Assembly: GCA_028281925.1 (NCBI GenBank)
Contig: JANQIX010000009.1
Location: 1 to 64,000, forward strand
From: Alphaproteobacteria bacterium
Lineage (GTDB): Bacteria > Pseudomonadota > Alphaproteobacteria > DSM-16000 > Inquilinaceae
Direction of reading: 5' to 3'
Length of the DNA: 64,000 nt
Shown: in pieces, positions 43,979-60,335 of the stretch
How positions within the stretch are numbered: the stretch's first letter is position 1
Layout: each line of letters starts with the position of its first letter
The notes under the pieces: generated by a model
The model's database searches: none
The model's input: only the letters and a program-made list of their open reading frames with translations
Told to the model about the DNA's origin: nothing
Made by a program: the position numbers and the translations under genes

Positions 43979-44623
43979 TCAGCCGATGTCGACATGGGCG
44001 AGGAACATCGTGGAGTGGATCTCCTGCCCCGACAGCTCACGCCGGTCACCGCCGATCCAGGGGTCGCGGACGACCATGCCGGTGAGCTGCTGCTGGCCGC
44101 CCTTGTCCTGCGCCCAGGAAAGCGCCGTCAGCACCATGGCGTGGCCCAGCGTGCCGATGATCAGCGGCTTCTCGTCCGCCATGTAGCGCTTCGCCAGGTT
44201 GGGGTCGATCGGCAGCGCCTCGCCACGGCCGTGGAACGGCTTGCCGTGCTCGTCCCGCCACGGACGGTTGACCGCCGACAGGATCTGGACGGGGTTGGCC
44301 GGCATGTCCACGATCCGGCCGAACGCCTCCTGAACGATCCGCTCCTGGCGGACAGGCCGGTTGTAGTAACCGAAGATCATCGAGATGCAGGCCGCCCAGC
44401 ACCACTGGCTTTGGTACTGCGGCAGTGCCGACTGCCCGGCGATCTGGCTCGGGATACCGGCCATGCACTGCTGGATTCCCTGCCAGTCGAACTCGGTGCA
44501 CTGCTCTGCAGCGCGGGCCATGCCGCGGGGCAGGAGCGCCGCAACGGCGGCCGCACCGGTCAGGCCCAGCAGGCGGCGGCGATTGAGGTTGGGTCGGTCG
44601 TTCTCTCGGCGACGGTCAGTCAT
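43979..44623 (-). CDS. Tat-exported papain-like cysteine protease (AvrRpt2/C70-like)
   Basis: This 214-residue protein has a twin-arginine signal (LNRRRLLGLTGAAAVAALLP, residues 13-32) with cleavage after ARA near 39. The predicted triad is Cys75 in QSQWCWAACISMIFGYY, His161 in IGTLGHAMVLTAL and Asp187 in VVRDPWIGG. WCWAA is the signature of the AvrRpt2-type papain-like family. The Tat signal implies folding in the cytoplasm before export to the periplasm. The function in this organism is unknown; it may be a housekeeping or contact-related protease. No obvious inhibitor is encoded beside it. Confidence 0.8.
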   Translation of the reverse strand: MTDRRRENDRPNLNRRRLLGLTGAAAVAALLPRGMARAAEQCTEFDWQGIQQCMAGIPSQIAGQSALPQYQSQWCWAACISMIFGYYNRPVRQERIVQEAFGRIVDMPANPVQILSAVNRPWRDEHGKPFHGRGEALPIDPNLAKRYMADEKPLIIGTLGHAMVLTALSWAQDKGGQQQLTGMVVRDPWIGGDRRELSGQEIHSTMFLAHVDIG

Positions 44624-52794: not shown

Positions 52795-53547
52795 TCAGCG
52801 CCGAAGGGCTCGCTTCCCATTGGAGATCGCGTCAACTAGATCAAATCGATGATTCTTGGAGCTGCGATCTGACTCATCGTCGTTGGTTGGGTCGTCGATA
52901 CTCGCTTTGGCAGTCTCCTTGACGGCCATCCAGCGATCGGGGCTGACAACCGATCCTGCCAATCGCGGCAATGGCATGCTGTCGTCGGTGTCGTGCACCA
53001 ATCGCAGCGCGACGATCCCCTCGTAGCCTGGGTCTGATCTGAGCGGCAGCCAGAACCTACCCAAGGGGTCCCAGATGCGGCACTGATGATCGCCTTCGAT
53101 CACCGCCGTTCCTTCGTGGTACGCGTAGATGCCGGTGCACCAATGGGGACGAAGACGACTGTTGCGCCAAAGCCCGGACCATCCCCGGGTGCTTTCGGGA
53201 TTGAACTTGAGAACGAGTTGGACTGGCATGACGTGGGCGCCGCGCGCCCGGTAGACGGCGGTCGACAACGCGGCCATGAGACCGCAATCGGTGTAGGGCA
53301 GATGCGGTATCTCACTCCAACGGACCGGCCAAGGATGGGGTCCCCATTTGAAGGTCTCATAGAGCCAGACAGGGGGTACATGCTTTCCTGCACGTCGGCG
53401 GAAGGCTTGGTCGAGCGCGCGGATCCACACCGCGGCGGCCCGGTCGGCGGCACTGACCGCCGGCTCGATGGCAGAATGGCCGCGATGCCGGAGCGGGAAG
53501 CCCACCTGGGCTTCAAGCCGCGCAGTATCGGCCTCTACCAAACTCAT
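52795..53547 (-). CDS. Unrecognised protein with a papain/transglutaminase-like Cys-His-Asp pattern
   Basis: This 250-residue protein is the last gene of the cluster; its ATG lies 35 bases inside the end of the decarboxylase gene. I recognise no family. Residues line up like a cysteine-protease or transglutaminase fold: Cys88 at the head of a helix (PYTDCGLMAALSTAVYRARG), His135 in RPHWCTGIYAYHEG and Asp160 in CRIWDPLGRFW. A long N-terminal segment precedes them and a charged, Ser/Asp-rich tail follows. If real, the triad could serve amide-bond formation, acyl transfer or hydrolysis on the product of the neighbouring adenylation and ATP-grasp enzymes. This is inference from spacing only. Confidence 0.6.
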   Translation of the reverse strand: MSLVEADTARLEAQVGFPLRHRGHSAIEPAVSAADRAAAVWIRALDQAFRRRAGKHVPPVWLYETFKWGPHPWPVRWSEIPHLPYTDCGLMAALSTAVYRARGAHVMPVQLVLKFNPESTRGWSGLWRNSRLRPHWCTGIYAYHEGTAVIEGDHQCRIWDPLGRFWLPLRSDPGYEGIVALRLVHDTDDSMPLPRLAGSVVSPDRWMAVKETAKASIDDPTNDDESDRSSKNHRFDLVDAISNGKRALRR

Positions 53548-55786
53548 AGGTCATGCTCCTGTCATAGCTGCCTGCATCAAGGATCAGCAATTGGTCACCG
53601 GCTTTGATGCCGGTGAAATCAAGCCTTTGCGCCAGGATGTCCGCCTCCATGCACGTACGGCCGAGAAGACGGTCGCATCCCTGTGCCGGCACCCGTGCCC
53701 ATTCAGCGCGGCCGGCAGCGATGGCCAGCGCACAAACTCGATGGGGAAAGTGCGCAGCCTCCGGAAGCTCGGCGATCGACGCATCAGCGATCACGTCTCT
53801 GGCCCAGCCTTCGGGACTTCGCGCCGCGCGCCGGACCTCCAGGACAGTGCATTGAATCATGCCCGCATCCTGGACGAGTGCCCGGCCCGGCTCCAGCACG
53901 ATCCTTCGGAGGTGCGGCAGCATCTGCTCACACCGCGGTCGGAACGTGTCGACCACCCAGTCAAGCTCGTCGGGAAAATCGGCCGGATAGAACCCGCCGC
54001 CAAGATCCAGCGTGGTGACGACTCCGGAGCCCTCGTCCTCGAGATCGACGGCGAGTTGCGCAAGTTCTTCGACCATCGCCCTCCAGGCATCCCTGCCGAT
54101 CAGACCATGGGCCATATGGACCTGCAGCCCAATTGCCCGCCCTGCGTCAAGTGACCTCAAAAGGTCGATCAACTCGGCCACGGCCCAGGGATGCTCCACC
54201 GGAATGCCGAACCGCGAGCCCATGCCGGGCGGCCGAATGCGTAGCCCTACCTCGCATGTCCGGTCCTTTAGGCGGGGCATAGTCGACGCCAGTTCTTCCA
54301 GCGAGTCCGCATAGACTGCCCCGCCTGCATCGAGCACCCGATCGCATGCTGCGGGCCGCTTGAAGGGGCCATTGAAGACGATATCGCGCAGAGGGATCCC
54401 CGCACCGGTCGCCGCCGCCAGTTCCTCTTCGCTGATGACGTCCACTCCGACGCCGAGGCGCGCACAGATTTCCAGCACGCTTGGATCGGGGTTCGTCTTC
54501 AGGCTGTAGACCAGGGCGACCGAAGATCGGCTGTACGTGCCGGATCGGGCAGCCTCAAGAGCGCTGGTGATCCGCGCCTCGACCTGCCGGGCGGAAAAGT
54601 GCCACCGGGGCGTTGGCATGACCGGCTCGGCCACGGGCAGAGGCGGCAGAGGCCGACCGCGCGGCGCGCCGGCCAGCCCGGATGATCTGCGGGTCGCTGT
54701 CGGCAACCCAACGGTTCCCTTCAGGTGAACCGCGATCTCGTGGATGCTGAATGCCGTCTTGGCCGCATCGAGAGGCTCGTCCGGATTGAGAACAAGGGGC
54801 GGCAGCAGGGGGTAACCCGCGCGGACGGGGACCTCTTGCTGAACGCGGGCAAAACCGTCGGCAGCCGGCATCTCCCGCATCTGTCGTCCAGTTGCAGCCG
54901 CGAGCAACCGGGCAGGCAGGTTGTGCCCCAGTAACGCCGCACCGGCGATCCAGCCGGGAAACCGGGCATTGACCTCGACCAGCCAGAGGCCGTCATCGGC
55001 ATCGCGGATCACCTCGATCTCGCCCCCGCCGGTCCAGCGGTGACGTGCGGCAAACGCCTCCAGGGCCGCCCAATCGGCCGGGCTGACGGGGCGCATCGTG
55101 CCGGCTATCGTCTTTCCCGCAGCCGTCGTGTCGTTCTTAGCAATCCAGATGGCATCGAGAATCTCGCCTCGCCAAGCGGCAAAGGCGATCGCTTCCGCCG
55201 TGCCGCGCACATGCTGCTGCAGGTGTACGCCGTCGAACGGCCAGTACTTCTCAAGCTGGCGGCGCGCACCCGGAAGCGCCTCCCAGCTCCTCACCCGCAG
55301 CGCGTCATGGAACGGCCCCTTGAACCACGCGTCCATGCCATTGCGTCGCAGAAAGCCATGCACTGCATCGGGGCCGTCACTGAGCAGGACCGCATCGGGC
55401 CGCCGCAGCCCGCCCAGGTCCGGTGCGGCGCCCCACGGCTTCGCGATTTCCCAGAACACCTCGGCCGGCGGACTGAGGATCGCCGGATGTTCCGGAAAAT
55501 GTGTCGCCAGCCAATAGGCCTCGAGATCGATCGTGGGGATCACGAAAGCGCCATCGGCCAGCCGGTCTGCGATGTCGGCCCTCAAGCTGTCGGTATCGAA
55601 CTCCCCCCATGGCCTATGGATGACCACATCGTCGAACACGTCCGCGTGCAGCCCCGCCGCCCGGACCGAGTAATCCACCCCGATGACGGAGATCGGACTG
55701 AATGCTCGCCGAAGACAGTGCGCGACCCCAACCCCGCCCGCAGGATCATCCCCTTGAGCCAAGCCGGAGACAATAACGATGGTCAT
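53513..55786 (-). CDS. Fusion: ATP-grasp ligase + group IV PLP-dependent amino-acid decarboxylase
   Basis: This is a 757-residue two-part enzyme. Residues 1-335 form an ATP-grasp-like domain: a Rossmann-like start (MTIVIVSGLAQGDDPAGGVG), a KGPFHDALR strand, HLQQHVRGTAEAIAF and the metal-binding Glu271-x-Asn273 in WLVEVNARFPGWIAG. A Pro-rich linker (380-395) leads to a DAP/ornithine-decarboxylase-type domain. That domain has the PLP lysine K430 in VYSLKTNPDPSVLE, the GGGF-type phosphate loop in TLDLGGGFYPADFP, EPGRALVQDAG, and the partner-site Cys712 in RTCMEADIL with LDAGSYDRSMTYEFG. The ATG overlaps the upstream stop (ATGA). It probably decarboxylates an amino acid and ligates it to another acid. 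The fusion order is unusual. Confidence 0.88.
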   Translation of the reverse strand: MTIVIVSGLAQGDDPAGGVGVAHCLRRAFSPISVIGVDYSVRAAGLHADVFDDVVIHRPWGEFDTDSLRADIADRLADGAFVIPTIDLEAYWLATHFPEHPAILSPPAEVFWEIAKPWGAAPDLGGLRRPDAVLLSDGPDAVHGFLRRNGMDAWFKGPFHDALRVRSWEALPGARRQLEKYWPFDGVHLQQHVRGTAEAIAFAAWRGEILDAIWIAKNDTTAAGKTIAGTMRPVSPADWAALEAFAARHRWTGGGEIEVIRDADDGLWLVEVNARFPGWIAGAALLGHNLPARLLAAATGRQMREMPAADGFARVQQEVPVRAGYPLLPPLVLNPDEPLDAAKTAFSIHEIAVHLKGTVGLPTATRRSSGLAGAPRGRPLPPLPVAEPVMPTPRWHFSARQVEARITSALEAARSGTYSRSSVALVYSLKTNPDPSVLEICARLGVGVDVISEEELAAATGAGIPLRDIVFNGPFKRPAACDRVLDAGGAVYADSLEELASTMPRLKDRTCEVGLRIRPPGMGSRFGIPVEHPWAVAELIDLLRSLDAGRAIGLQVHMAHGLIGRDAWRAMVEELAQLAVDLEDEGSGVVTTLDLGGGFYPADFPDELDWVVDTFRPRCEQMLPHLRRIVLEPGRALVQDAGMIQCTVLEVRRAARSPEGWARDVIADASIAELPEAAHFPHRVCALAIAAGRAEWARVPAQGCDRLLGRTCMEADILAQRLDFTGIKAGDQLLILDAGSYDRSMTYEFGRGRYCAA

Positions 55787-57510
55787 GCTGCCGAACCGCG
55801 CTGCGCCTGCAGTTTGACCACCTGAGATGCTACACCATCAGCCACCGACCTTGCGTAATGTTCCTCCCCAAGGTAACTCCAATTCACGTGAAACACATCG
55901 CTTGGGCACATTGGTAAGTTCTCAGCATAGACTATTCGATTGCCATTCCTCCTTGGGGTTTCCTCCGGTGGCGCCATTGTGTATGGGATAATCGGAAATT
56001 CATTACGGAAATCGACACCCCTTGTGGCCCGAAACTCTGCACGACGGAGTACTGCAACATTTGATACAGGGAAAGACCATGAATCATTGAGGTACAATAC
56101 TTGATCTGCATCCGATCTTGATGTGACTCGACGAGGATGAACATAACTCCAGGCGTACAGAACTCGCACTTCTGCCCACCGATAGGAGTCTAGGCCGTCG
56201 ACGTAATCGGCAAAATCGTCAAGATCTGATTTAATCGGCACATAACATCCTAGCGCCCTGTAATCAATTCCATCAATCAAAGAAATAGTTCGAGTAGAAG
56301 CAAACTTCAAAAACAGCGCCCGCACTTCTTCGTTGAGTTTACCTTCACGATCGAATAGAGAAACAAAACGAATCCTATGGACTTCTCGCTTTCTCGAAAT
56401 CGTCAATGATGGGTAGACAACAAAAACCGAAAATACTGTTGGCCCATACTTACTCTGCTCCTGTCCTTCTCGTCCCAAATGGTCATCCCTCACTCTGAAG
56501 TCGCCTAAATGGTCAATGCGACCAAAGTCTGTGCGGAACTGTGGATCTGTTAAAACTTCATTTAAAAGCTCATCGGGACAAGGCCCCATCCATTCTAGCC
56601 TTCGTAACTCAGAAAGAAGTAATTGGTTGTCATGATCATTATCTTGGTATCCGAGTTCGTTTCTCCAAAGATTGTATAACTGAGATGAAACGGGATAGAT
56701 AGGCGTGCAAGAGCCAAAAGCGTCTTTATTGCGGGCATAAGCATCAAAGGGAATTATTATAAATGGTGAAATTAGGTTATCGATAATGTTTTTCAGAGAA
56801 AAGCGATCTGCATACGGCGCAGTGAGATTGATTCCTCCACCATCTTGCACAAGATCGGCTTCTAAGCCCTTGGGAAATTCAAAAGAAAAACCATGCCACT
56901 GAAAATAGTCAATTGAAAGAAATTCTGTGATTTTTGAAATAGCTTGGGCGTTTCCGATATTGGCATGGTTCTTGTCTAGATTGCCGCCTACTTCTACCAT
57001 ATAGTTCAAACCTGAAAGTGTTGGGATTTGACCCCATTGGTGCATCCTGAACATCTCACGCATCTTCTTAACAATTTCTATCCATGAACTTGTCTGAATC
57101 CATTTGGCAGCTGGCGCCACGACACTAAGCTGCCCCTCAGGCTTTTCGGTCGTGCTGATTGATACTTCTATATACTTCTTAATTTCTTCAATCGATGATT
57201 TTGTCTTTCCCAAATCAGAGATTAGCTCTCTAATATTCTGTTCACTGTTTTTGTGAACTTGCCTGAACACTATGTATAGACTTGCAAAAATCACCAGCGC
57301 TGTCAATGTATCGATCCACTGGCTATAGTTCTGCCTTTCAATTTCCGTGATATCTCTGTCGCCGAAGATATGTTCGTACAACCGAAGTACCATATCTTGA
57401 CCAAAACTCGAAATACAAACCGAAATAATAATAACTATGATTCCCCAGAACTGCAAATCTCTATCTCGGAGGAATCTGAGCCCCCGAAGTATCTGCCTTA
57501 CAAGAAACAT
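55783..57510 (-). CDS. Unrecognised membrane-anchored protein of the cluster (low GC)
   Basis: This 575-residue protein has two N-terminal hydrophobic helices (about 22-36 and 67-83). A short charged, coiled-coil-like stretch follows (SEQNIRELISDLGKTKSSIE, about 89-108), and then a large soluble part. I recognise no domain. Noticeable segments are WGQIPTLSGLNYMVEVGGNL, FQWHGFSFEFPKGLEADLVQ and NGNRIVYAENLPMCPSDVFH. Base and codon use are clearly more AT-rich than every neighbour (many AAA, ATT, GAA codons), which signals a different origin. The ribosome site is GAGG, seven bases before ATG 57510. The gene is sandwiched (4-base gap and ATGA overlap) between the adenylating enzyme and the fusion enzyme, so it belongs to the same transcript. 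Confidence 0.8.
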   Translation of the reverse strand: MFLVRQILRGLRFLRDRDLQFWGIIVIIISVCISSFGQDMVLRLYEHIFGDRDITEIERQNYSQWIDTLTALVIFASLYIVFRQVHKNSEQNIRELISDLGKTKSSIEEIKKYIEVSISTTEKPEGQLSVVAPAAKWIQTSSWIEIVKKMREMFRMHQWGQIPTLSGLNYMVEVGGNLDKNHANIGNAQAISKITEFLSIDYFQWHGFSFEFPKGLEADLVQDGGGINLTAPYADRFSLKNIIDNLISPFIIIPFDAYARNKDAFGSCTPIYPVSSQLYNLWRNELGYQDNDHDNQLLLSELRRLEWMGPCPDELLNEVLTDPQFRTDFGRIDHLGDFRVRDDHLGREGQEQSKYGPTVFSVFVVYPSLTISRKREVHRIRFVSLFDREGKLNEEVRALFLKFASTRTISLIDGIDYRALGCYVPIKSDLDDFADYVDGLDSYRWAEVRVLYAWSYVHPRRVTSRSDADQVLYLNDSWSFPVSNVAVLRRAEFRATRGVDFRNEFPIIPYTMAPPEETPRRNGNRIVYAENLPMCPSDVFHVNWSYLGEEHYARSVADGVASQVVKLQAQRGSAA

Positions 57511-57514
57511 GCCG

Positions 57515-59107
57515 CTACCTCACTTTTCTTGGCATCTTCGGCGCGCCGATCACGCGGATATCTAATGCATCTCTCGGCATAAACAAACACGATTGGAGAT
57601 CAATAAATACATCGTGTTCGATATAGCCGCTCACATAGCAGATCAGCCGGCCGTCTATCCCCAATTCGACCTTTGCCCAGAGGACTCCATCCAATGATTC
57701 GAACGCCGTCTCAATCTCCTCAGGTTCGATCCGATATCCTTGCCAATTCAATCTACGGTCAATACGGCCGACCAGACGCCATCCGAAGAGACGCTCTCCA
57801 TTGTCTGAGCGTACCTGGCGGAAAGCATCGCCTGTGTCGAAGTAGCCCGCTGCATCCGTCGGCAGCGATAATCCTGTGTCGCGGCGGCCTTCGCAGATAT
57901 AGCCGGAGAAAACACCGTGTCCCTTGACCTGGAGCGAACGGCCAGCGTGCCCCATAATGGGCACGACATGGGCATTGGCAGCGCTCACAGCTTCCAAGGT
58001 TGATGCTCTTCCCGCCTCCGACACGGGCGAGAACCGCAGGTCGACCCTCGCAGCATCGGGCATCGCGAACACCGTCGCCGTCTCCGGGCGCTCCGGGTCC
58101 ACTCTGCCGGTCAGGATATATGGCACCTCCGCCACGCCGTAGCAGTTGTGGATCTCCACCTCGGCCGGCACGTTTCGGCGGATCAGTCGCAGGACATGGC
58201 CGGAGATGCGGTCGCCAGTGAGGATCAGCTGGCGAAGGCGCGGCATCGGCGTGCCCGCCGGCAGGCTCTCCAGGGCGAACTGCAGGGCCGCGGGTACCGA
58301 CATCAGGCTGGTCGCGCGGTGACGGCGCAGACAGCGGGCCCAGGCGCGGCCGTCTTCGTACAGCCGGTCGGCGAGCACGATCGCCGCCCCGCCCGGCGTC
58401 AATGCCGTCAGCACGTCCCAGATGGCGTCGAACATGAAGCCGGATTGGACCGCCACACGGTCGTTGCGCGTAAAGCGATAGTCTTCGATCAGGCGGCGAA
58501 TGACGTCGGCATATCCCGCGTGCGACATCGCCAGGATCTTCGGCACGCCCGTCGTGCCAGAGGTGAAGGTATAGAATGCGATCTCCGCGCCGCGCCCGAT
58601 CCGAGCCGCACAGTCTTCGATCTCGCCCGGATCCGGGGATGACTCCGGCCCGTCGCCTTCTCCTGAGAACAGGTCGTCCGCGCGCAGGAACGCGATCCCC
58701 GCAGGCAGGTCTTCCGTCCAGGCGGGCGTGTCCGGCCCCCATGAGAGCACAGCCCGCGGTTCAAGCCGCCTGAGGGCCGAGGTCAACGCCGCTGCCGGGT
58801 ACGACGCATCGATCAGACAGTATCGCCCGCCCGCCAACAGGGCCCCGAACGCGGCCGCCACGCTGCGCCGGCTGCGGTCGGCAACCACCAGGAAAGTCCG
58901 CGACTGCGCGGGGCCCATGGCTGACAGCGCGCGCGCAACACGCATCGACGTAGCGAAGAGTTCAGCGTATGACCACGCTCCAAGGTCGTCGACAAGCGCC
59001 TCGTCATTCGGCTGGTCCGCAATGCGGCCCAACACCCCGTCGAGGAGGGACGCACTGCCAAGGTCGCTTCCTGTCCAGGACCGTGGTATCGAGTCAGTCG
59101 GCATCAT
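57515..59107 (-). CDS. Stand-alone AMP-forming acyl/aminoacyl-adenylating enzyme (NRPS A-domain-like)
   Basis: This 530-residue ANL-superfamily enzyme has the phosphate loop FYTFTSGTTGVPKILAMSH (about 178-196), A5-like NCYGVAEVPY, A7-like YFDTGDAFR and A8-like GRIDRRLNWQGYRIEPEEIE. It ends APKMPRKVR, with the A10 catalytic lysine almost at the terminus. It activates a carboxylic or amino acid as an adenylate. No carrier domain is fused, and no carrier-protein gene is present in the cluster. ATG 59107 overlaps the start codon of the divergent desaturase-like gene, so its promoter must lie inside that gene or the start is slightly further in. Pairs of such ligases with PLP decarboxylases also occur in exosortase-A-linked loci. 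Confidence 0.87.
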   Translation of the reverse strand: MMPTDSIPRSWTGSDLGSASLLDGVLGRIADQPNDEALVDDLGAWSYAELFATSMRVARALSAMGPAQSRTFLVVADRSRRSVAAAFGALLAGGRYCLIDASYPAAALTSALRRLEPRAVLSWGPDTPAWTEDLPAGIAFLRADDLFSGEGDGPESSPDPGEIEDCAARIGRGAEIAFYTFTSGTTGVPKILAMSHAGYADVIRRLIEDYRFTRNDRVAVQSGFMFDAIWDVLTALTPGGAAIVLADRLYEDGRAWARCLRRHRATSLMSVPAALQFALESLPAGTPMPRLRQLILTGDRISGHVLRLIRRNVPAEVEIHNCYGVAEVPYILTGRVDPERPETATVFAMPDAARVDLRFSPVSEAGRASTLEAVSAANAHVVPIMGHAGRSLQVKGHGVFSGYICEGRRDTGLSLPTDAAGYFDTGDAFRQVRSDNGERLFGWRLVGRIDRRLNWQGYRIEPEEIETAFESLDGVLWAKVELGIDGRLICYVSGYIEHDVFIDLQSCLFMPRDALDIRVIGAPKMPRKVR

Positions 59108-60116
59108 GGAATTCGCGCCAGAAGCGAAGATGCCTCAACAGTGGTGGCCGCCAAGTCTCCATGGAAAGGCAGTCTACAGTTTGACGGACGATTGCCAAGA
59201 CGCAACCGAAGGTCTGCGGAGTACCATTCCCACTTCAGGCATTCCGCGGTCACCGCGACCCCGCCTTGACGCGATCCTGCCTCGGCGCCCCGCTGCCGCC
59301 CGCCTCGCTGTGACTGCCGGCCTAGCCGCCATACCCGTCTGCGCCGGGCTGTGGGTCGGGACGGACACTTGGGCCGGTGTGGCGATCACCGCCGCCGCGT
59401 CGCTCGCGTTAGGGTTCTTGTTGTCCCTGATGCTTCCGATCATGCATGAGGCAACGCACGGGTCGATCGCCCGCGCAAGGGTGACCAATGCCCTGATCGG
59501 ATGGCTCGCCGGCGCGATTCTGCTGATCGACTTTGCGACCTACAGAAGACTCCATCTGGCGCACCACCGGCACACTGGCGAACCGAAGGACCCGGAGGCG
59601 CCGGTCGAGCTGAAATCGACGGCCGGCTACCTGCTCCACCTCACCCCGTACTATTTCCTCATCCCGTTCTGGCGGCTGTCCTGGGCATGGATGTTATCCA
59701 CACCCCGCGGCCTATCGGCTTCGCAGGCGGCGTTGGTGGCCCTGACGGTCGGCATCGCCGGCGCGACGGCGTTGTGGCCGGTCCATGCGCTATGGATCTA
59801 CTGGGCTCCGTTGATGCTGTCGGCTGGGTTCTTGTTCCTAACAACGGTTCATGAGCATGTGCCGCTGCAAGGCGATGCCGTACCCGTGACACGGACGATC
59901 GTATCGAATCCGCTGCTCTCGTTCCTGCTCTGGAACACGAACCTTCACATAGAGCATCATAGGTCCCCCACAGTGCCGTTCGATCAGCTACGGGTCCACG
60001 ACGCGTCTCCGCAGCCTCTGCCTGGAGACGTTGTCTCAGGGTTTGCCGCGTTCCATCGTCGACTCTTGGCCGAACTCCGCAGGTCGCCGAGAGCGGAGCA
60101 GGCAACGGCGCCGTGA
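59106..60116 (+). CDS. Membrane fatty-acid-desaturase-type di-iron enzyme
   Basis: This protein of about 336 residues has four to six hydrophobic segments and the three histidine boxes of membrane di-iron desaturases/hydroxylases: PIMHEATHGS (H114, H118), RRLHLAHHRHTG (H150, H153, H154) and NTNLHIEHHRSP near residue 285. The start is uncertain: ATG 59106 or ATG 59130 (MPQQWWPPS), neither with a strong ribosome site. It is divergent from the adenylating enzyme with no intergenic space. It could desaturate or hydroxylate an acyl chain used by the cluster, or a carotenoid-like lipid. Confidence 0.83.
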   Translation: MEFAPEAKMPQQWWPPSLHGKAVYSLTDDCQDATEGLRSTIPTSGIPRSPRPRLDAILPRRPAAARLAVTAGLAAIPVCAGLWVGTDTWAGVAITAAASLALGFLLSLMLPIMHEATHGSIARARVTNALIGWLAGAILLIDFATYRRLHLAHHRHTGEPKDPEAPVELKSTAGYLLHLTPYYFLIPFWRLSWAWMLSTPRGLSASQAALVALTVGIAGATALWPVHALWIYWAPLMLSAGFLFLTTVHEHVPLQGDAVPVTRTIVSNPLLSFLLWNTNLHIEHHRSPTVPFDQLRVHDASPQPLPGDVVSGFAAFHRRLLAELRRSPRAEQATAP

Positions 60117-60125
60117 ATTGACGGA

Positions 60126-60335
60126 CCTGTAGCAGCGCGTGATGCTACCGGTTTTGCTGATTTGCGCTTCATCCCTGACAGCCGCGAACTGAACGTCCTG
60201 TTCGAGGCAACGGTCGACGCGATCGAAGAGGCGATCCTCAACAGCTTGGTCACGGCCACGGACATGACCGGACGTGACGGCAACTTCGTGCCGGCTCTGC
60301 CGCAAGGGGCAGTGCGGGCGCATTTCGAGCGGTAG
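60126..60335 (+). pseudogene. P1-family peptidase (DmpA/BapA-type), C-terminal remnant
   Basis: The frame following the desaturase stop has no start codon but reads PVAARDATGFADLRFIPDSR, then ELNVLFEATVDAIEEAILNS and LVTATDMTGRDGNFVPALPQ before a stop at 60335. EATVDAIEEAILNSL-A-DMTGRDG is the typical end of S58/P1-family aminopeptidases. The N-terminal nine-tenths is missing. The break lies at the desaturase stop codon, so the adjoining cluster probably replaced or truncated this gene. Confidence 0.65.

Follow-up and report, generated by a model that had tools for sequence, protein, structure and literature searches.

The butirosin side chain is made with the ATP-grasp ligase BtrJ, the alanine-racemase-fold decarboxylase BtrK, the papain-like acyltransferase BtrH, and BtrI, and the glutamate that is processed is bound to a carrier. 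Exosortase-A loci hold a pair consisting of an AMP-forming ligase and a decarboxylase of the same fold (TIGR03098/TIGR03099). Closthioamide biosynthesis employs an ATP-grasp enzyme (CtaD), a decarboxylase (CtaF), an acyl-activating enzyme (CtaI), and the amide-forming transglutaminase CtaJ and peptidyl transferase CtaG, together with the carriers CtaE and CtaH and a thioamide-forming enzyme (PMC6772006). In rhizoferrin biosynthesis, the NIS synthetase FigA produces N-citrylornithine and FigC decarboxylates it (PMC7857480). FigC has M355 next to its catalytic Cys, at the position where other family members carry an Asp that binds the amino group of the side chain (PMC7857480).

Here we analyse five neighbouring genes in the window, i.e., the whole stretch of 64,000 nucleotides under study, which belongs to a draft genome of 6.33 Mb. 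The first four are given as in the ORF list.

CHD: 52795-53547, minus strand, 250 aa, Cys-His-Asp protein
FUS: 53513-55786, minus strand, 757 aa, ATP-grasp-decarboxylase fusion
MEM: 55783-57510, minus strand, 575 aa, membrane protein
AMP: 57515-59107, minus strand, 530 aa, adenylating enzyme
DES: 59106-60116, plus strand, divergent to the other four, membrane di-iron hydroxylase/desaturase family

CHD and FUS overlap by 35 bases, FUS and MEM share an ATGA overlap, and MEM and AMP are separated by a 4-base gap, so that the four coupled minus-strand genes described in the initial annotation are recovered with exact coordinates. The enzyme families it assigned to the set are confirmed by matches to AMP-binding (putative acid activation), Orn_Arg_deC_N (decarboxylation), and FA_desaturase (desaturation), and for the ATP-grasp part by kept ligand residues. 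As it had also stated, there is no carrier, condensation, or PKS gene among the ORFs of the set. PADLOC, viral contigs, and phages gave no hit for the cluster and the PHROGs no convincing one, and an origin as a defence system or phage was rejected. GC3 is 0.70-0.75 in CHD, FUS, AMP, and DES, 0.41 in MEM, and 0.87 in both flanking genes measured. The gap between cluster and flanks makes the operon look foreign, with MEM as a second, more foreign layer. Therefore, the gene cluster was probably acquired from elsewhere.

Full-length FUS is found in six other genomes, with 32-36% identity: three Streptomyces, another actinomycete, a planctomycete MAG, and a Kiritimatiellae MAG. A CHD homologue directly follows FUS in 6/6 of these loci, and the surroundings are very different. 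With the window included, the two genes are adjacent in 7/7 genomes that carry the fusion, in four distant bacterial groups, an association that exceeds chance. A plasmid of Streptomyces zaomyceticus, found by tblastn of plasmids, carries the full-length fusion (33% identity), then the CHD homologue, and then a desaturase-family gene. A scan of 84,980 species genomes, which relied on two peptide patterns, added the Planctomycetaceae MAG, the Kiritimatiellae MAG, and two Streptomyces, and a sampled search added the further actinomycete (L041). The three Streptomyces share a FUS-CHD-desaturase cassette of 4.5-4.6 kb, and the likeness stops at the cassette edges. In L041, the order is FUS-CHD-urea transporter (PF03253, 3e-79). 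No further likely partner gene adjoins FUS-CHD in the planctomycete and Kiritimatiellae MAGs. FUS is preceded by a TIR-domain gene in the former (L028:3359-4123) and by RHS-repeat and WG-repeat genes in the latter (L030:4266-9553).

The pair is rare among the sampled genomes. As lower bounds, since scoring was restricted to the best candidates in each genome and the whole-collection scan worked from two peptide patterns, CHD occurs in 1/385 genomes of the window's class, which is the window's own genome, and the fusion occurs in 2/395 genomes of the Streptomyces class, 1/219 of the Streptomyces genus, and 1/294 and 1/241 of the phyla of the two MAGs. Except for the one new actinomycete, the sampled fusion matches are the centre genomes themselves. 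The fusion is labelled 'hypothetical protein' in the single annotated record, and no description of it or of the FUS-CHD pair was found in the open-access literature searched (an earlier amidoligase survey was not covered). The claim of a non-assembly-line cluster that matches no characterised pathway holds against the same literature.

The initial annotation treated the five genes as one set and named their adjacency elsewhere as a check. The two-gene core, FUS and CHD, stays together in each of the six other loci, none of which has AMP or MEM. The five genes as a whole do not form a conserved unit.

FUS comprises an ATP-grasp ligase (residues ~1-340), a low-confidence linker (residues 317-392), and a PLP decarboxylase of the alanine-racemase fold (residues ~390-757). 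Pfam recognises the ATP-grasp half only weakly (ATPgrasp_Ter 4e-4, under the cut-off). The nucleotide/Mg ligands K116, K156, K217, E256, E258, E/D271, N273, and R275 are kept in the six aligned homologues, and the N-terminal half classes as an ATP-grasp ligase by its sequence features, the Lys pair and the E/D-x-N-x-R motif.

The decarboxylase half matches Orn_Arg_deC_N (6e-23) and Orn_DAP_Arg_deC in Pfam/NCBIfam. Its nearest solved structure is the N-citrylornithine decarboxylase FigC (7kh2, 5.6e-38), followed by DAPDC (4e-34) and BtrK (1e-27). Residues K430 (the PLP lysine), G596-598 (the GGG loop), E632 (in E-x-G-[R/K]), and C712 are invariant in the six aligned FUS rows, as is M713 after the catalytic Cys, and no Arg is present at the DAPDC position in the aligned FUS proteins. 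The loop reads G-x-x-C-M-E-x-D in FUS (GRSCMEHD in L041) and C-M-Q-H-D in FigC. In addition, the PLP lysine stands in a K-T motif in FUS proteins, and the position of FigC R290 is occupied by R635 in the window and by K in the homologues. In a tree with four reference enzymes only, long branches, and bootstrap values not fully settled, the FUS proteins (100/99) fall together with FigC and with three unfused C-M decarboxylases (99/97), and DAPDC is placed elsewhere.

The C-M loop, the lost DAPDC Arg, and the grouping with FigC point to a side-chain-modified amino acid, and the substrate of the FUS decarboxylase is probably a side-chain-acylated one. The 'lipid-amine' product proposed earlier gains no specific support, as residues and tree favour decarboxylation of such an amino acid. 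The modification is probably not citrate, since the citrate-contact residue H357 of FigC is not kept (A/N/S/N/N/H at this position in FUS proteins), and FUS was accordingly set apart from FigC itself as an N-citryl decarboxylase. In most FUS proteins, FigC T327 is replaced by an acidic residue (E/D), which could bind an amine. Assignment of FUS as a diaminopimelate decarboxylase was rejected on the CME loop, the missing Arg, and the score of the lysA model (108 bits versus a cut-off of 298).

CHD matches no Pfam, NCBIfam, or PADLOC family, no convincing PHROG, and no PDB sequence. Its description as a Cys-His-Asp protein is upheld by C88, H144, and D160, which are invariant in six aligned rows. 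In the AlphaFold model (pLDDT 74, pTM 0.73, from five sequences), the Cys is positioned at a helix start and the His and Asp on the following strands. Foldseek matches of the model are weak (query TM ~0.2-0.3; best E 4.5e-4, to axonemal chains) and include axonemal doublet chains, vasohibins, PeiP, TG2, TglA, and CtaG. CHD is predicted from the model to have a papain/transglutaminase-like topology, and may act as an acyl transferase, amide-former, or hydrolase. A papain-like protein is encoded 8 kb from the cluster (window 43979-44623, minus strand; Peptidase_C70 match 8.5e-6).

We read the cluster, with moderate confidence, as a horizontally acquired NRPS-independent operon whose two-enzyme core ligates and decarboxylates, with subsequent acyl transfer or release and no carrier. 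It probably represents a new form of NRPS-independent amide biosynthesis that yields a small amine-containing molecule. The observed footing of this scheme is the conserved gene pair, the intact catalytic residues, and the decarboxylase subfamily, from which we infer all chemical steps and the substrate class. In the first step, the ATP-grasp half of FUS would activate a carboxylate as acyl phosphate and form an amide with the side-chain nitrogen of a diamino acid; alternatively, it would join a side-chain carboxylate to an amine. In the second step, the FigC-type PLP half would remove the alpha-carboxylate of the acylated amino acid to give a mono-acylated diamine. Because decarboxylation follows acylation, the amine would arise inside the product, not from a free polyamine. 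In the third step, the Cys of CHD would take the acyl group and hand it to an amine, making a second amide, or to water, releasing the product. In this genome, an additional acyl or aminoacyl unit probably comes from AMP and DES or is oxidised by them, and for related systems transport of the product probably falls to a channel of the urea-transporter family.

The other three genes are less firmly tied to the core. AMP is a stand-alone adenylation domain (AMP-binding 1.3e-42 in Pfam; 173 bits against TIGR01733, below the cut-off of 317) without a thiolation domain. Its sequence stops two residues past the putative A10 lysine K528, and AMP may therefore be either a truncated gene or an amide synthetase. 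Among FUS loci it occurs in the window only, as an accessory gene. MEM has N-terminal hydrophobic segments, a charged helix, and a large soluble part. It matches no Pfam, NCBIfam, or PADLOC family and no convincing PHROG, and searches of 46 related genomes and of the plasmid collection gave no homologue. With 44% GC, the MEM gene is a low-GC insert.

DES belongs to the FA_desaturase family (PF00487 3.5e-30, 106 bits versus a cut-off of 29.7) and has the three His boxes HEATH, HLAHH, and HIEHH. Its nearest curated models are the CrtR hydroxylase and the arginine hydroxylase GntB, both far below cut-off, and the family contains many proteins of moderate similarity (31-38%). The start positions of the divergent AMP and DES overlap at window 59105-59108, so at least one of the two starts probably lies further inside its ORF; as the DES ATG at 59106 overlaps the AMP start at 59107, the true DES start is probably further downstream. 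The divergent desaturase-like gene of the initial annotation is thus right in family and probably misplaced in its start. Its membership in the cluster holds in part: a desaturase-family gene recurs in the three Streptomyces only, but as a different FA_desaturase-family protein, and DES is an accessory gene. Just past DES lies a C-terminal remnant of peptidase family S58 (DmpA-type; window 60117-60334, plus strand; PF03576 3.2e-8), and beyond it come over 1 kb of DNA that is low in GC and appears to be non-coding. Both are traces of gene loss or insertion.

AMP, MEM, and DES may be part of a different function. On this alternative, FUS and CHD are one unit and the remaining genes serve other functions or are decaying remnants in a coincidental neighbourhood. 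It is rather unlikely, although it carries appreciable weight and does not conflict with our main reading of the core. The absence of AMP and MEM from all other FUS loci, the anomalous GC of MEM and of the AMP 3' end (0.49), the end of AMP just after the putative A10 lysine, and the S58 remnant all speak for it, whereas the tight coupling by the 4-base gap and the ATGA overlap, the similar GC3 of CHD, FUS, AMP, and DES, and the desaturase-family gene beside FUS-CHD in Streptomyces speak for a joint function.

A carrier-dependent route of the butirosin/closthioamide type is improbable. The ATP-grasp half would load an amino acid onto an acyl carrier encoded elsewhere, the decarboxylase would act on the bound amino acid, and CHD would unload it as a peptidyl transferase. 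The closthioamide enzymes CtaD, CtaF, CtaI, CtaJ, and CtaG match the parts of the cluster, BtrK is among the nearest solved decarboxylases, and CtaG and TG2 are among the weak fold matches of CHD. Nevertheless, BtrK, with its C-T loop, lies outside the clade of FUS and FigC, the pair stands with no other likely partner in the planctomycete and Kiritimatiellae, and no carrier-like or common small ORF lies next to FUS in the seven loci (126 small ORFs around these loci compared). On the same comparison, a carrier or a RiPP precursor beside FUS was rejected.

Among 63 unfused decarboxylases, a small sample in which some relatives were picked as matches to the query, an ATP-grasp gene lies beside 3/4 with a C-M loop versus 1/59 with other loops (Fisher p 4e-4); counting only the decarboxylase-found cases, the C-M figure is 2/3 (p 5e-3). 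Over all decarboxylases, an ATP-grasp partner is present for 8/9 with C-M (five by fusion), 0/31 with C-E, 0/26 with C-D, and 1/2 with C-T. One with a C-T loop, of the alanine-racemase fold, adjoins an ATP-grasp gene in a genome from the family to which the window belongs (L075:6300-8812), where the neighbours resemble, by eye, polysaccharide genes (glycosyltransferase, flippase, and sulfotransferase).

Two loci from two genera of the same class (L050:37-8979 and L058:1526-9600) contain an operon of the order TPR, PqqD-like, tandem ATP-grasp, C-M decarboxylase, and UT-Sir2, and L026 holds its first part. Another operon (L025:1776-6472) consists of an ATP-grasp gene, a C-M decarboxylase, and a urea-transporter/M23-peptidase fusion. 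Together with L041, there are four loci in which a UT-family gene shares a gene group with FUS or a C-M decarboxylase. The open-access literature searched held no published account of the L050/L058-type operons and nothing relevant on ATP-grasp enzymes with UT, PqqD, or transglutaminase. We propose, tentatively, that FUS and CHD are the core of an undescribed carrier-free class of amide biosynthesis, in which one polypeptide would ligate an acid to a diamino acid and decarboxylate it and a transglutaminase-like partner would transfer the acyl group; it is a similarly cautious suggestion that the wider set of ATP-grasp/C-M decarboxylase/UT-channel operons shares the two-step chemistry of FUS and joins this class.

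The PqqD fold is used for leader-peptide recognition, and the PqqD-like protein in some unfused relatives suggests a peptide substrate in those relatives. It is doubtful that FUS likewise ligates an amino acid onto a peptide or protein and decarboxylates it, with CHD as a maturation or leader peptidase in RiPP-like modification. A papain-like fold, as predicted for CHD, would suit a peptidase, and in the related unfused operons the PqqD-like protein comes before the tandem ATP-grasp genes, the C-M decarboxylase, and UT-Sir2; but no PqqD homologue is present beside the FUS genes, and the ORF comparison across the seven FUS loci gave no common small ORF. In one further unfused locus, an M20 deacylase-like gene lies just before a C-M decarboxylase, the ORFs overlapping (L049:4904-7419), possibly as an N-acyl amino acid pathway. 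A protecting-group logic, in which FUS adds a temporary acyl group and decarboxylates and CHD hydrolyses the amide to a free diamine, would fit a hydrolase role of CHD and the deacylase-like neighbour in L049, but is unlikely, as ordinary decarboxylases already make diamines, two further PF02784 genes are present in the window's genome, and a route that costs ATP seems redundant.

If the carrier-free ligation and decarboxylation by the core is true, two genes suffice, with neither carriers nor NRPS modules, for an acylated diamine of a new type. Such pathways could be searched for by a C-M decarboxylase loop beside an ATP-grasp gene and by FUS-CHD adjacency. As a simple marker, a C-M rather than a C-D or C-E loop may separate decarboxylases of modified amino acids from lysine/polyamine enzymes.

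The interpretation in the initial annotation is partly supported, and comparison with the described systems places the cluster as follows. Its distinction from the exosortase-A pair is correct: the pair was rejected on scores far below cut-offs (TIGR03098, 75.5 versus 592 bits; TIGR03099, 81.3 versus 478 bits), FUS has its own ATP-grasp domain, and the cluster has no exosortase, although an AMP-forming ligase and an alanine-racemase-fold decarboxylase are common to both. Closthioamide resembles the cluster in its ATP-grasp, decarboxylase, and acyl-activating enzymes and, on the predicted topology of CHD, in its transglutaminase/peptidyl-transferase enzymes, whereas its carriers and thioamide-forming enzyme have no counterpart seen in the window cluster. 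Butirosin shares the ATP-grasp ligase, the decarboxylase fold, and, on the predicted topology of CHD, a papain-like acyltransferase, and differs in its carrier-bound glutamate and in the loop and clade of BtrK. The L050/L058 operons (and L026 in part) have related ATP-grasp domains, a C-M decarboxylase, and a UT-family membrane protein, but are unfused, include TPR and PqqD genes, and have no CHD. FigA/FigC follows the same ligate-then-decarboxylate logic as our model for FUS, and FigC has the C-M catalytic loop and Y-S-x-K-T around the PLP lysine in common with it. Unlike that system, FUS does not keep the citrate-contact His, uses an ATP-grasp ligase in place of an NIS synthetase, carries it fused to the decarboxylase, and has a predicted transglutaminase-like partner beside it.
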